From positions 1-12,999 of the forward strand of contig JAUIJG010000121.1 of assembly GCA_030431355.1 (NCBI GenBank): a stretch of 12,999 nt of DNA, written 5' to 3'. This document shows positions 2,602 through 12,999 of this stretch, piece after piece (the first letter of the stretch is position 1; every line of letters starts with the position of its first letter). Below the pieces are notes generated by a model, which saw only the letters and a list, made by a program, of their open reading frames with translations, was not told where the DNA came from and searched no databases. This DNA is from a bacterium. Its GTDB lineage: Bacteria; Cyanobacteriota; Vampirovibrionia; Obscuribacterales; Obscuribacteraceae. A program made the translations under genes and the position numbers.

Positions 2602-4752
2602 CTACTTTTTGGGCAGATCTACCCACTCGACTCTATGACGCCAGGGCCCGGAATCGGGCACACGTATGTCATGGACGCCATCCTCTTCGAGAACCACTTT
2701 TCCTGAACGATCACGAATAAAAAGCTTGTAGCGGACTTTCTTGCCGGCTGGTAGTGGCACACAAAGAATGTAATCGCGATCTTCAGAATAAAGCATGGGA
2801 CCTGCTGCATCACTGGCTGTAGTACGCCAATCACCGAGGCTTGCGCCTTCTCCGCAAATAAAGATCTCCTCGCCTTTAAGCTGTAAGGGAGCGTTTTTCA
2901 CAACAAAAGTAACCGGCACCAACCTGGACTTGTACACATAGAAGGGCCGGCTATTTGTCCTGGCGCCGTCTTTTCTCTCCAGGTATATAGACAACTCCCC
3001 AGTGCTCAGAGTAGGCGCGGTAAACGTAACACTGGAGTCGGACCAATGATTGATCACAAGTGAGTTTCCAGCCACCACGACCTTTCCTCTCTCCTCACCG
3101 AATCCGACACCATCTATAGTCACCCTGGCACCACCATGAATAGCTGCGGGCACCACCGAAGAAATTTCGGGAACCATCGTCTTCGCTCCCTCATTGGACG
3201 CTCCCTTTAACCACAAAGAGGCGGACTGCGCCGGCAATTGAACTCCACTTCTCTGCTCTGAGGAGGATGAATTGAGCACAAGTTCCACGCCGGAGAGCGC
3301 TCCTTCCAGCGAATCTTTGTAGTTACCGGCACTGAACTGAAACTCTTCGGGTATGTTGAGACTGAAATCTTCTTGAGACTTGTTGATCGCTATGATAGCT
3401 TTCTCTCTTCCAAACTCCCTCTGGTAGACATAGACATCGTCATTGACAAATACTGTCTCCTGCTTTCCACTGTGCAATGCCTCGCTATCTGTCCGCAATT
3501 TGTTCAACTTGGACACTAACTTGTAGGCGGAGTTTTCGGGATCAAAAGAGGTCATCCAGACTCTTGTGTAAGGGTCTCCACCACCTTTGGTATCGTCGTG
3601 AAGATACTGCTCTGTTCCATAATAAAGACTGGGAATCCCGCGACTGGTAAGAAGCAAGGCAAGGGCTAGATGAAGATTCTTGCGATTACTATTTAAACTA
3701 AGCAATCTGGGCATATCATGATTGTCGAGAAAGGTGATAAGCGCGTTGCAATCATTAATGTCTTCATTCTCGCGCTCTATGATTCGAGCAAGCCTACGGA
3801 AACTAGCATCTTTGCCGGTGCCGAAAGCAGCCCGGGCACCGGTGGCAAAAGGGAAGTCGAACATACCGATGCCCGCTTTGTTGACAAACTTCACCGCATC
3901 TCTATACATAGGATCTTCAGTATCCGACATCCACCACTCCGCCGCCACAAAGTGACTGTCCTTGTCCACCAACTTGCTGACCAGCGATCGCTGCCATCCC
4001 CAGCTTGCATGCTTGGCCGCATCCAATCTGGTGGCATCGGCACCATGGGAGATCAATTTCAACACTGAATTGGACAGGTAAGTATCGATATAAGAATTCT
4101 CCTGATTCAGATCACCCAGCCAGGCCAGGGTGTAGTACTGAAGCTGATAAGGAGAGTTCCAATCCTTGATCTCGGGAAGATGATGAAAAAGCTTGTTTCG
4201 GTCATTTTCCGTATCACTCATGAACTCCATACCATCATATAGAGCGCCAAATTCGCCATGGTTAATGCTGCTTGTATGATTGAGGGGCATGTCCACCATC
4301 ACCTTAATCCCCTGCTTATGAGCTGCCGCAATCAGAGCATCAAAGGTTTTCCAATCACCAATATGTTCATCTATGCCTTTAAAATTTCGAGCATGGTATC
4401 CATGGTAAGGAGCCATAATTGATCCGTCTGCCTGCACCGTCGGCTTGTTGACATTGTCTATCACCGGAGAGATCCAGATGGATGAGAATCCCATCTTCTT
4501 GATATAAGGAAGTTTGTTGATCACACCCTGAAGATCTCCTCCCCAGTATGCATGCCAGTTCTTCTTGGCCGGATCGAACATTCCTTTGCTCACTTCCGGA
4601 TCGTCATTTCCCGGATCACCGTTACAAAATCGATCGGTAAAAATCTGATAGATGGTCCCCTTACGGAAGTCTTTTGCCAGAGCCCCTTGCGAGCACATAG
4701 AGAAAAGTAAAAAGGTCAAGAAAACTGAAAGGGATAGAAGTTTGATGTTCAT
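2602..4752 (-). CDS. Secreted GH13 alpha-amylase/CGTase-like enzyme with IPT/TIG and CBM20 domains
   Basis: This protein acts on alpha-1,4-glucans (starch, maltodextrin) outside the cytoplasm. I start at ATG 4752 (716 aa) because it begins a clean signal peptide ending GALA|KD near residue 26; a GTG at 4806 would add 18 residues in front of it. The (beta/alpha)8 domain carries the GH13 signatures: region I VDMPLNH (153-159), region II ATRLDAAKH with nucleophile Asp244, region III AAEWW with acid/base Glu272, and region IV FLDNHDMPRL with Asp343. The surrounding text (IYQIFTDRF, GGDLQGVINKL, YHGYHARNFK, GWQRS) closely follows cyclodextrin glucanotransferases of subfamily GH13_2. A C domain, an IPT/TIG domain (about 527-608) and a C-terminal starch-binding CBM20 (about 612-710) complete the CGTase A-B-C-D-E order. 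Family-level identity is firm. Cyclising versus hydrolytic activity is not: the residue aligned with CGTase Tyr195 is Ala210. Confidence 0.93.
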   Translation of the reverse strand: MNIKLLSLSVFLTFLLFSMCSQGALAKDFRKGTIYQIFTDRFCNGDPGNDDPEVSKGMFDPAKKNWHAYWGGDLQGVINKLPYIKKMGFSSIWISPVIDNVNKPTVQADGSIMAPYHGYHARNFKGIDEHIGDWKTFDALIAAAHKQGIKVMVDMPLNHTSSINHGEFGALYDGMEFMSDTENDRNKLFHHLPEIKDWNSPYQLQYYTLAWLGDLNQENSYIDTYLSNSVLKLISHGADATRLDAAKHASWGWQRSLVSKLVDKDSHFVAAEWWMSDTEDPMYRDAVKFVNKAGIGMFDFPFATGARAAFGTGKDASFRRLARIIERENEDINDCNALITFLDNHDMPRLLSLNSNRKNLHLALALLLTSRGIPSLYYGTEQYLHDDTKGGGDPYTRVWMTSFDPENSAYKLVSKLNKLRTDSEALHSGKQETVFVNDDVYVYQREFGREKAIIAINKSQEDFSLNIPEEFQFSAGNYKDSLEGALSGVELVLNSSSSEQRSGVQLPAQSASLWLKGASNEGAKTMVPEISSVVPAAIHGGARVTIDGVGFGEERGKVVVAGNSLVINHWSDSSVTFTAPTLSTGELSIYLERKDGARTNSRPFYVYKSRLVPVTFVVKNAPLQLKGEEIFICGEGASLGDWRTTASDAAGPMLYSEDRDYILCVPLPAGKKVRYKLFIRDRSGKVVLEEDGVHDIRVPDSGPWRHRVEWVDLPKK

Positions 4753-4770
4753 GAAATCGATCCGGTGCGG

Positions 4771-4800
4771 TTGTATTCGCAATAAAATATCAGATATGCT
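4771..4800 (+). promoter_or_regulatory. Weak putative promoter for the GNAT gene
   Basis: TTGTAT (4771-4776) and TATGCT (4795-4800) are separated by 18 bases and sit about 30 bases before the GNAT start, in the 77-base gap between divergent genes. The match is partial (about four of six in each box). The amylase promoter must lie in the same gap or inside the GNAT gene; I cannot identify it. Confidence 0.25.
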
Positions 4801-4829
4801 ATTCACTGTTCTTTAAGAGTGCCGTGGCG

Positions 4830-5441: not shown

Positions 5442-5510
5442 AAAGCACTCCGGTTGTCAGGGGAGTAAACTCAAAGTCAAACAATAAAACGTCGATTCAA
5501 GGAAGCAACC

Positions 5511-6233
5511 ATGTCCTGGTATCTGCCCATTCTGATGATTGTCTCAGCCCTTCTATGCGGTCTTGTCGGCTGGCATATCGGTGACCATGCCGCCGCTATC
5601 GCCCTGACTATTGCAGGCCCCTTGATGATCCTGGGCATTCATGACCTCTACAAGCACAAACATGCGGTGCTGGCATGTACTTTACTCACCGCCCTGGCTG
5701 GAGGTTACTTCTGGCATTTAGAAGGATTATTGATCGGCGGAATGCTGGCTTTTTGTTTTTCTGTCTCGGTCAACGACTTTCTGATCAAAAGAAACGCGGT
5801 GTTGCCCACTATTGCCACTGTATCTGCCATCACATGGTACCTGGCTTTTCACTACAGTTCAGCGGTGGTGGCTCTGGTATCGGCATTGATATCAACGCTG
5901 ATAATGATAGGAATCTGGGACTATTGGTTTCAACACAAACACGCAATCAGAAGAAACTTTCCATTAATAGGTTGGTGCCGCTACGGATTCGAGCTGATCG
6001 GAGACGAACTTCGCCAGTATTGGTTTATGTCAGACACGGAGGAGCGCCCGTACGACAGAGAGAGAAGAAGATATATCTATCGCTCCGCCAAAGGGGTCAA
6101 CAACAATCTCGGCTTCGGCACCAGTCGCTCATACCGTGATGTGGGCGAGCTGCACTTGCTAAATACCATGTTCCCTACCCCGGATGACCTGGATAATTTC
6201 AACCGACTGCCGCCGTTAGTTATAGGGAAATGA
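5511..6233 (+). CDS. N-terminal segment: membrane repeats plus glutamate synthase family linker
   Basis: The 240-codon segment starts at ATG 5511 behind a good Shine-Dalgarno (AAGGAAG, 5499-5505). Residues 5-140 hold about six hydrophobic helices arranged as three similar units. Each unit is a helix pair ending in Asp plus a basic turn: GIHDLYKHKHAV (42-53), VNDFLIKRNAV (87-97) and GIWDYWFQHKHAI (134-146). The third turn leads into RRNFPLIGWCRYGFELIGDE, the standard N-terminal linker of membrane-linked FMN-binding glutamate synthase family proteins, followed by ELRQYWF and a DRERRRYIY-type stretch. If translation stopped at 6231, the product would be a membrane anchor with a linker but no catalytic domain. 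Confidence 0.75.
   Translation: MSWYLPILMIVSALLCGLVGWHIGDHAAAIALTIAGPLMILGIHDLYKHKHAVLACTLLTALAGGYFWHLEGLLIGGMLAFCFSVSVNDFLIKRNAVLPTIATVSAITWYLAFHYSSAVVALVSALISTLIMIGIWDYWFQHKHAIRRNFPLIGWCRYGFELIGDELRQYWFMSDTEERPYDRERRRYIYRSAKGVNNNLGFGTSRSYRDVGELHLLNTMFPTPDDLDNFNRLPPLVIGK
6231..6233 (+). other. In-frame TGA codon inside the glutamate-synthase-like gene
   Basis: This TGA lies at codon 241, between PPLVIGK and RKHPYHCTWPINISG. Family members I can recall have the same spacing between the conserved Ile-Gly and Asn-Ile-Ser, about 13 positions. The TGA therefore occupies a normal residue position and not an inserted one. One substitution from CGA (Arg) or GGA (Gly) would produce it. Family members often have Cys two positions later, not at this position, and I see no bacterial SECIS-like hairpin in the next 40 bases. 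Confidence 0.85.
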
Positions 6234-6278
6234 AGAAAACATCCCTATCACTGCACCTGGCCAATCAATATTAGCGGG

Positions 6279-7607
6279 ATGAGTTGGGGATCCTTGTCGG
6301 CAGAAGCAGTCATGGCGCTATCAAGCGGCGCCAAGATGGCCGATATCCACATGGTTACAGGCGAAGGGGGTCTTACACCCTATCATCTAAACGGAGTAGA
6401 CATCAGCATTCTTCCTGAAGAGAAGCTCACCCGGTCGCTCTTCAAATTCTTCAATCTGATCACTTTTGGCCGGGTTAAATCCACCAACAACCTAAAGACA
6501 GACAATATCGGCGGCGGGAAAGTTCTGCTCCAACTTGGTCCAGCGAAGTTCGGTTTTCGCAAGATGATCAGCGACGCTGTCAAAAGTTCGCCGGAGGAAA
6601 GAGAGTTCAGAAAACACTACTCCAACGAACTGGACTTAGAAAAACTAGAAGAGACCCTCAAAAAAGATCAAATAATAGGAATTGAGATCAAACTGCAACA
6701 GGGTGGTAAACCTGGGATGGGAGGCAAACTCCCCAAAGAGAAGATCACCGATGAGATAGCTCACTGGAGAGGTATTCCCAAAGATGTGGACTGCTATTCT
6801 CCAAACGCCTGGAAAGAGTTCAACGATGTTCCTTCCATGTTTGCCTTCATCAAAAAACTACAGGATCTAACAGGTAAACCCGTCGGTATCAAGATTGCCA
6901 TGGGTCAGGATAATTACTTCCGTCAGATTGCAGGACAGATGAAAGATACCGGGGACGGGCCGGATTTCATAACCATAGATGGTGGCGAGGGTGGCACCGG
7001 CGCGGCCCCCGTGGCCCTTGCCGATACGATGGGACTTCCGATACTACACACAATTCCCAGAGCAGACACAATCCTGCGGGAATACGGTGTCAGGGATGAA
7101 GTGGTCCTGATAGCCTCCGGACAAATTGCCACCGGCAGCGATATCGCAATCGCCATGGCCCTGGGCGCCGACGCAGTGAATATAGGAAGGGGGAATTTGC
7201 TGGCCGAAGGATGCATTATGGCGAAAAAGTGCCATACCAACCACTGCCCCGTGGGAATAACAACCCAGGATCCACATTATAGAAGAGGCTTTTCACCCCA
7301 GAACAAATTCATCAGAGTTGCTAACTACAACAGGGTGCTCCAGAGAGAGCTTTTACTTATCCTGCGCTCTGTCGGGGTCGATACTCCCTGGGAATTGACC
7401 AGGCACCATGTCAGCGTCGTGACCAGCCCCATGGAAGAGAAGATTATGGCGGAGCTCTATCCATATCCTGATGGGTCGGACGGGAAGAGACATCCGGTAC
7501 TCGGTGATCTGCCTCCGGACAATCCGGACATCTGCGACACCTACGGTCCCAAGCCCCTGAAAGTGGTAAACGGAAGAGTTGTGAAAACTGCATTCAAGAA
7601 TGAATGA
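6279..7607 (+). CDS. C-terminal segment: FMN-binding, [3Fe-4S] glutamate synthase catalytic domain
   Basis: This is the glutamate-synthase (GltB central/FMN) barrel, which in GltB uses FMN and an iron-sulfur cluster to reduce 2-iminoglutarate to glutamate. Visible motifs are TGEGGLTPYHL, GGKPGMGGKLP, VDGGEGGTGAAP-like TIDGGEGGTGAAP, ASGQIATGSD, ALGADAVNIGRG, and the cluster motif CIMAKKCHTNHC (C-x5-C-x4-C, Cys 568, 574 and 579 of the joined protein). Compared with relatives I recall, about 35-40 extra residues lie between YHLNGVD and LLQLGPAKFG. The ATG at 6279 sits inside the conserved NISGMS strand and has no Shine-Dalgarno, so it is unlikely to be an authentic start; homology runs back to about 6237. 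No glutaminase domain is present, so the electron and nitrogen donors are unknown. The gene ends in TGA at 7607. Confidence 0.85.
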   Translation: MSWGSLSAEAVMALSSGAKMADIHMVTGEGGLTPYHLNGVDISILPEEKLTRSLFKFFNLITFGRVKSTNNLKTDNIGGGKVLLQLGPAKFGFRKMISDAVKSSPEEREFRKHYSNELDLEKLEETLKKDQIIGIEIKLQQGGKPGMGGKLPKEKITDEIAHWRGIPKDVDCYSPNAWKEFNDVPSMFAFIKKLQDLTGKPVGIKIAMGQDNYFRQIAGQMKDTGDGPDFITIDGGEGGTGAAPVALADTMGLPILHTIPRADTILREYGVRDEVVLIASGQIATGSDIAIAMALGADAVNIGRGNLLAEGCIMAKKCHTNHCPVGITTQDPHYRRGFSPQNKFIRVANYNRVLQRELLLILRSVGVDTPWELTRHHVSVVTSPMEEKIMAELYPYPDGSDGKRHPVLGDLPPDNPDICDTYGPKPLKVVNGRVVKTAFKNE

Positions 7608-10950: not shown

Positions 10951-12003
10951 TTATGAGTTGAGCTTGAACTTGCTGCTCATTTCCCTGAATACCGGCTCCA
11001 GCTCAGAGCGCTTGGAATCAGCCACCAGGCCCTGCTGGATAAAGTAGCTGTCGCCGGAAAAAATAATCACCTGATAGAGAAACATCTTGTCGCCGGACTT
11101 CTTATCCACAGCTTCAGCAGTTATCTCAAATCCTTCCTGGCCACTGTCACCCCTGGAGAGGTCCACCACATCCAGCTCTTTCACTTTATCTAAAGAAGCC
11201 GTTTGTTTAATCCGATTCAAGCAAAATGCCTTCTTGTCCGATATCAACGATTTGCGAAACGATTGCCCCACAAGAAAGATGGCGTCTTTGGAGGAGGTAG
11301 CCGGAAACTTTCCTTCTTCGGTGAAAAGAAGCATGTTCTGAATTCGATGCGCTAAGCGCAGCGGCTTAACCGCCTCTATCTTAAAATTCAAACCAGCTGT
11401 CTTATCCAGCTTTTTGTCTTGATCCCACTTTACACTCTCTACACAAGTCTTTAGTTCATCGGATAATTCACCGGAATTCTCAGACGGCGAAGCGGGAAAA
11501 GCAGAGACCACAAGAACGGCGTTTTCATCATCGCCAAATACGCTTATCCACTTTTCAAATTCAACCGGACCCAGCTTTTGTTTCAGATTAATCAAAACCC
11601 CGGGCTTGCCGGAGACCTCGATCTCTTTTCTTGAAATAAGTTCCATTCTTCGAGCGGCAAGATTTTCTTTGGTGAATCCCTGGAGCAATTTGGGAGCCGG
11701 CGCAGGCATCTCTGTGACCATCACCGAGGCATGTTTACTCTCTTCCATGAAACCGTTGAAAGTATCTGAGACCTTAAAGCCTTTCGGCTGAATCATCCTG
11801 ACCCGGGTGCCTTTGACAGGCACAAGTTCTCTGGATTGCAAAGGAGATGTTTCTCCTGCGCTCTCCGAAACTTCTGTCTTCGGAGCATCCGCAGCTAGAG
11901 AAGGAAGACCGGCGGATAGGCTGAGAAGCAAGATCAGTGAAAGAGACAGGCGAGAAAGATTCTCGCGGTCGGACTTAATCGAAGGATTCAAAGATTTTTT
12001 CAA
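10951..12003 (-). CDS. Exported protein with two tandem PsbP/Mog1-like domains (tentative)
   Basis: The protein has 350 residues. A signal peptide (basic start, hydrophobic 19-33, cleavage near SLAA|DAP at 38) is followed by an acidic Ser/Thr linker (38-60). Two regions of similar layout then follow, about 66-193 and 204-348. Each begins with strands, has a central G-x-strand element (SGKPGVLINLKQKLG; GQEGFEITAEAVDKKSG), and ends in strand plus helix leading to a final SVKW- or SSKFKL-type segment. This pattern resembles PsbP/DUF1795-like periplasmic domains, but that is a visual comparison. The start is TTG 12003, backed by GGAG (12011-12014, minus strand) with a 7-base spacer. It is probably cotranscribed with the methyltransferase gene, with no obvious functional link. 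Confidence 0.8.
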   Translation of the reverse strand: MKKSLNPSIKSDRENLSRLSLSLILLLSLSAGLPSLAADAPKTEVSESAGETSPLQSRELVPVKGTRVRMIQPKGFKVSDTFNGFMEESKHASVMVTEMPAPAPKLLQGFTKENLAARRMELISRKEIEVSGKPGVLINLKQKLGPVEFEKWISVFGDDENAVLVVSAFPASPSENSGELSDELKTCVESVKWDQDKKLDKTAGLNFKIEAVKPLRLAHRIQNMLLFTEEGKFPATSSKDAIFLVGQSFRKSLISDKKAFCLNRIKQTASLDKVKELDVVDLSRGDSGQEGFEITAEAVDKKSGDKMFLYQVIIFSGDSYFIQQGLVADSKRSELEPVFREMSSKFKLNS

Positions 12004-12086: not shown

Positions 12087-12999
12087 TCAGACGAAGAGAT
12101 TTTTGGCCACCGGTGATCCGCCCCTTGTATATCCGGGAAACAGCTCTGCTATCTGATTCTTTGACAATTCAAGATGGTTCTCCGCCACGCTGGAGACAAC
12201 GTCCCGGAAATCCACCCGAACAGGAAGGTCCCTGCCTTCATAAAGATTGCCTTTTGCCAGGCCGCTGAAGTCACCATGAACTTTGCCGCCGTTGACACCA
12301 CCACCCATCAACCACATGACATTACCATGACCATGGTCGGTACCACCATTGCCGTTCTCTTTTACAGTCCTTCCAAACTCGGACATCACCATGATGACGG
12401 TATCTTTGTACTGAGGACCGAGGCCGGTCACCAGATCGGCCAGACCGCTGCCTAAAGAGTTTAATTGGTTGGTGAGCTGACCTTTGGAAGCGCCTTGATT
12501 GACGTGGGTATCCCAACCCCCAAGGGCTAAGAATGCAATCTGGGTATTTCGGTCCTTGCCAAAGAGACTGCCCAGCTGTCTGCCGAAACCTTTAAAATTA
12601 CGGGCCACCGGGGCACCTTTATTGGCTGCCTGCATCTCCTGGGCCAGTTTCTCTTTGAGGGTGTTATGACTCTCCAGTCCTTCCTCGAAGGCTTCTTCAA
12701 GCTCATCTCCTCGACCTTCATACATCCTGGCAAATGCCGAAGAGATAAATGGCTGATCTATTACGGATCTTCTACCGCTTCTTTTGGGGGCGTAACTGGC
12801 AACAGTAACCGGACCCTGAAGAATACGGGGCATCGTGGAACCCACATTAATTGCCCGAATCGGAGAGCTATTGTCCGGCAAAAGCTGAAGCGCTCTGTTT
12901 AACCATCCTGAACTAGCTGTTTTTACTCCCGGGCGACCGGACTCCATGTAGTCCTGAGCGTCAAAATGAGAGCGTGTACCATCCGGAGATCCCGATGAG
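12087..12999 (-). CDS. DUF1501 family protein, 3' part (5' end beyond window)
   Basis: The frame stays open to the right edge. Upstream of the ATG at 12947 it continues as GTRSHFDAQDYMESG, which is the DUF1501 signature around HFDAQD, so that ATG is internal. About 303 residues are visible. Other family motifs are GGWDTHVNQG, MVMSEFGRTVKENGNGGTDH-G and GGGVNGGKVHGD, followed by RVDFRDVVSSVAENHL and a C-terminal FPGY. DUF1501 proteins are usually exported by a twin-arginine signal (not visible here) and share a fold and metal-ligand pattern with the alkaline phosphatase/sulfatase superfamily; no substrate is established. They are often encoded beside DUF1800 proteins, which would be expected upstream, outside the window. 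Confidence 0.9.
   Translation of the reverse strand, partial: SSGSPDGTRSHFDAQDYMESGRPGVKTASSGWLNRALQLLPDNSSPIRAINVGSTMPRILQGPVTVASYAPKRSGRRSVIDQPFISSAFARMYEGRGDELEEAFEEGLESHNTLKEKLAQEMQAANKGAPVARNFKGFGRQLGSLFGKDRNTQIAFLALGGWDTHVNQGASKGQLTNQLNSLGSGLADLVTGLGPQYKDTVIMVMSEFGRTVKENGNGGTDHGHGNVMWLMGGGVNGGKVHGDFSGLAKGNLYEGRDLPVRVDFRDVVSSVAENHLELSKNQIAELFPGYTRGGSPVAKNLFV

Follow-up and report, generated by a model that had tools for sequence, protein, structure and literature searches.

A single in-frame TGA splits a glutamate-synthase-like oxidoreductase gene in an Obscuribacteraceae contig, most likely as a recent nonsense mutation or an error in the consensus

The large chains of ferredoxin-dependent and NADPH glutamate synthases with solved structures (PDB 1llw, 1ea0, 2vdc, 6s6s, and 7mfm) are proteins of 1472-1520 residues. 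The gene studied here, located in a 12,999-nucleotide stretch of contig JAUIJG010000121.1 (hereafter the window), shares a related catalytic region with these enzymes (residues 388-625 of its read-through product, E 4e-30 to 4e-28); however, the product has 698 residues, contains no Pfam glutaminase domain, and carries hydrophobic segments in its N-terminal part. An FMN-binding glutamate synthase family protein of Candidatus Obscuribacterales (P0006) has the same length, hydrophobic N-terminal part, PF01645 domain, and C-x5-C-x4-C motif, and is colinear with the read-through product, whereas the window allele has a stop at codon 241. Bacterial nonsense alleles and young pseudogenes, as a general kind, likewise combine a single in-frame stop, no decay, and a near-identical intact protein elsewhere; for the window TGA, however, a base error is also a candidate.

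The Pfam glutamate synthase domain PF01645 is recognized in the read-through product at 282.8 bits (cut-off 20.4), and the second piece alone retains 274.8 bits together with a weaker FMN_dh match; the first piece (codons 1-240) has no Pfam or NCBIfam matches. All NCBIfam matches fall under their cut-offs, including NF008730 for the glutamate synthase large subunit (105.9 bits, cut-off 1047), and the single Rfam match lies far below the gathering score. The motifs downstream of the TGA had been described as intact, which agrees with the invariance of Cys 568, 574, and 579 (C-x5-C-x4-C) across the 41 rows of alignment A1 (P0001 plus 40 sequences chosen from the 120 listed relatives). The hydropathy profile places several hydrophobic segments within residues 1-140 and another one above the same threshold at residues 531-550, in the catalytic part; codons 1-240 comprise hydrophobic (probably membrane) segments and a linker to the catalytic domain. 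The gene is predicted to encode a glutamate-synthase-like oxidoreductase that is anchored in the membrane and uses flavin and iron-sulfur cofactors, these putative cofactors being assigned from the family.

In the open reading frame listing, two ATG frames of 240 codons (5511-6233) and 442 codons (6279-7607) share one phase, and their sole separator is the TGA at 6231-6233, followed by 15 open codons; reading through this TGA with X at codon 241 yields the 698-residue product. The sequence-only reading had proposed that the TGA alone splits one frame and that family sequence persists from 6234 to the ATG at 6279; both points were borne out, the latter by the match of codons 242-256 to the relatives. 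The features of the gene are collected in Table 1.

Table 1. Parts of the split gene and their positions in the window.
Feature	Position	Strand	Basis
Purine-rich AAGGAAGC, Shine-Dalgarno-like, 5' of ATG 5511	5499..5506	+	Read from the sequence
N-terminal part, codons 1-240	5511..6230	+	ORF; hydropathy; colinear with P0002-P0006
In-frame TGA, codon 241	6231..6233	+	Arg in P0002; Lys, Arg, or Asn in 107/119 relatives
Codons 242-256, family sequence, stop-free	6234..6278	+	RKHPYHCTWPINISG
Codons 257-698 with the terminal TGA of the gene; PF01645 and C-x5-C-x4-C intact	6279..7607	+	

A protein search with X at the stop (7999 candidates scored, 4531 matches, best 120 listed) identified a 698-residue protein, P0002, which is encoded on a 204436-base contig and is identical to the read-through product at 695 of 698 residues. 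It matches over the full length and differs at residues 69, 73, and 241 only, which upholds the claim of one gene with one nonsense codon; its codon 241 encodes Arg. Four relatives with identities of 73%, 70%, 64%, and 63% come next, and the source of the 63% one names it Candidatus Obscuribacterales, the group to which the host is probably related. As a check on what relatives carry at codon 241, an amino acid was found in 119 of the best 120 of the 4531 matches: 56 Lys, 26 Arg, 25 Asn, two each of Ala, Thr, His, and Ser, and one each of Asp, Leu, Gln, and Gly; P0085 is the sole listed relative with a gap there. Site 241 is a variable position, occupied by Lys, Arg, or Asn in 107 of the 119 listed relatives. 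The cluster of P0002 counts eight members, which may take in fragments, perhaps the window's own pieces, and this number was not used to count intact alleles.

The sequence downstream of the TGA is without decay, as would be expected whether the stop is an error or arose very recently. Compared with P0002, 2 of the 240 residues before codon 241 differ and none of the 457 after it. Among columns that are at least 95% conserved across the 39 other relatives in alignment A1, the window departs in none of the 38 that precede the stop, none of the 4 within codons 242-256, and 1 of the 123 that follow. The lone departing column is His 589 (window 7275-7277), which is Arg in 39 of 39 other relatives in the alignment and His also in P0002.

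Genome surveys covered 53 Obscuribacterales-related genomes (G001-G053), belonging to the order of G001, the genome that bears the homologous locus L001, and 382 class genomes drawn evenly from the larger group. Matches at E 0.001 or better were found in 33 of the 53 order genomes and close relatives (E <= 1e-90) in 23, none of the latter with a stop inside the frame. All rows listed are free of internal stops save one flagged as having two TGA codons (G046), and that one is an unbroken 750-residue frame with its own stop at L098:2446-2448 and the second TGA beyond it, at 2461. In 20 genomic loci, the residue at the position of codon 241 is Lys (12), Asn (3), Arg (3, L001 included), Thr (1), or Gly (1). 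At the match limit of 1e-100, 21 of the 382 class genomes have a match, all of them within the 53-genome order set. Identity in the order and class genomes reaches at most 59% for matches that cover the greater part of the query and 66% for shorter segments; thus, there is no same-species DNA among these 53 and 382 genomes. An alignment-based contig scan returned 551 relatives, the best 80 of which include L001 (Candidatus Obscuribacterales) at 55% and others at 35-40% identity in the best segment; a scan based on the read-through product gave 14 pattern matches and zero relatives. The same DNA was also sought in viral contigs (by pattern) and in plasmids, both unlikely places, and neither scan found it or a second sequence bearing this TGA.

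We favor, with modest confidence, the reading of the TGA as a genuine and very recent strain-level nonsense allele, and we infer mutation rather than error. An intact copy exists in a close relative (P0002), and a single disabling change separates the two; the alleles also differ at residues 69 and 73, so that the stop is not their sole difference. Under this reading, translation would end at codon 241, after the membrane part, so that the catalytic domain would not be made and the enzyme would presumably be lost, and the nonsense change would be so recent that the downstream sequence is kept whole. If the stop is real, the allele is a naturally occurring knock-out of this putative membrane oxidoreductase.

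The strongest alternative, a serious one although held at less than even probability, is that the assembled consensus carries a base error at the TGA and that the gene of the organism is intact. It would account for a sole defect in an otherwise intact gene, for the existence of the near-identical intact P0002, and for the absence of decay signs, and the window has the appearance of a metagenome contig, its own protein being listed on a contig of 12999 bases. However, no further frame in the window was seen to be broken, and the differences at residues 69 and 73 suggest a real strain difference. All 12 other window frames listed as genes are open, which is a weak sign of good base quality, the amylase being the only one compared lengthwise with a close relative. 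The three known differences between the window and P0002 all change the protein; this comparison was made at the protein level, where silent changes are unseen, and therefore the divergence of the two alleles is not judgeable from it. In the assembled sequence, mutation and consensus error look alike. Either way, the phenomenon is most likely of an ordinary kind that involves no new reading of the code. Among the origins first offered for the stop, a young nonsense mutation and a base error both fit, whereas recoding is very unlikely given the Arg in P0002 and the lack of Cys in all 119 relatives; all forms of recoding and a two-gene arrangement jointly receive a small probability.

Read-through of a real TGA by a near-cognate or suppressor tRNA, yielding some full-length enzyme, is improbable. 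The downstream part is fully preserved, as such read-through would have it, but recency accounts for the preservation as well. UGA followed by A is a somewhat leaky context in bacteria, and the base after this TGA is A; however, TGA terminates three neighboring frames and the glutamate-synthase-like gene itself, and none of the listed relatives carries a stop at that codon. A partial form, in which newly arisen regulation would give mostly a membrane stub and little full-length enzyme, is even less probable.

We consider it very unlikely that the locus consists of two genes, one for a membrane protein and one for a catalytic subunit whose start would be ATG 6279, because the full-length relatives are fused. 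The second frame scores as PF01645 by itself, and 2 of the 120 listed relatives, P0083 (461 aa) and P0085 (439 aa), are short and start nearby; both sit on short contigs (2546 and 1406 bases, respectively), where cut ends are possible. Against two genes, the second ATG encodes the motif residue Met 257, which is kept in 120 of 120 listed relatives, the PF01645 match in the read-through product begins at residue 246, upstream of that ATG, and GGCCAATCAATATTAGCGGG, which precedes ATG 6279, offers no Shine-Dalgarno-like sequence at the usual distance. Relatives ending at the same TGA, which together with conserved separate starts would have supported two genes, were not among the 120 listed.

The insertion of selenocysteine at codon 241 is the least probable of these explanations, even though its machinery is widespread in the order. 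Above the cut-offs, SelB was found in 40, tRNA-Sec in 42, and SelA in 38 of the 53 order genomes, as compared with 2, 5, and 1, respectively, of 14 control genomes; ARAGORN likewise identified two of the tRNA-Sec loci. The limit of E 0.001 gave SelB and tRNA-Sec matches in every one of the 53 order genomes and the 14 controls, as is to be expected from related factors and from other tRNAs; hence only the cut-off counts were used. Examples of machinery loci in this order are L105 and L106 for the tRNA, L103 and L104 for SelB, and L107 for SelA, and according to PMC9529120, a proteome of Candidatus Melainabacteria includes one protein that contains Sec. The proposed look-up of selA, selB, and selC therefore showed the machinery to be common in the 53 genomes of the related order, so that the argument from its absence is lost. 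Selenocysteine is nevertheless very unlikely, because P0002 carries Arg at the site and none of the 119 listed relatives carries Cys there, as which the search tool would display U; P0011 has a Cys one position after 241. The 45 bases from the TGA form no stable hairpin (0 kcal/mol, z +1.84), and the stretches of 66 and 81 bases do not fold better than shuffled sequences (z -0.09 and +0.63) in this test, which is one of folding and not a SECIS model. The sequence-only reading had seen no SECIS-like hairpin, had noted that the position is not the usual Cys of the family, and had ranked selenocysteine below mutation or error, and the folding results, the Cys-free site, and the Arg allele agree with it on each point. 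Where the relatives of a lineage possess selenocysteine machinery, an isolated in-frame TGA can be mistaken for recoding, and a single near-identical sequence is enough to answer most of the question. An alternative code with TGA as a sense codon was set aside, since TGA terminates four frames of the window, as had been stated, the split gene itself being one of them (7607) and the others being a GNAT gene (5384), a SpoU-type methylase gene (10229), and the frame 12087-12998, which continues past the window's edge.

Other genes of the window include frames with the putative labels DUF1501 and HMA-like. The searches with the amylase and with the 10951-12003 protein gave no measure of the divergence of the P0002 strain elsewhere in the window. 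The latter is a 350-residue protein encoded on the minus strand for which only eight matches reach E 0.001 in the database, its own entry (P0242) ranking first. The alpha-amylase-like protein is encoded at window 2602-4806, also on the minus strand, and its closest listed relative, P0122 from another contig (13768 bases), is 97% identical; the two differ at 25 of 716 aligned residues, and 17 of these differences lie between residues 478 and 602.
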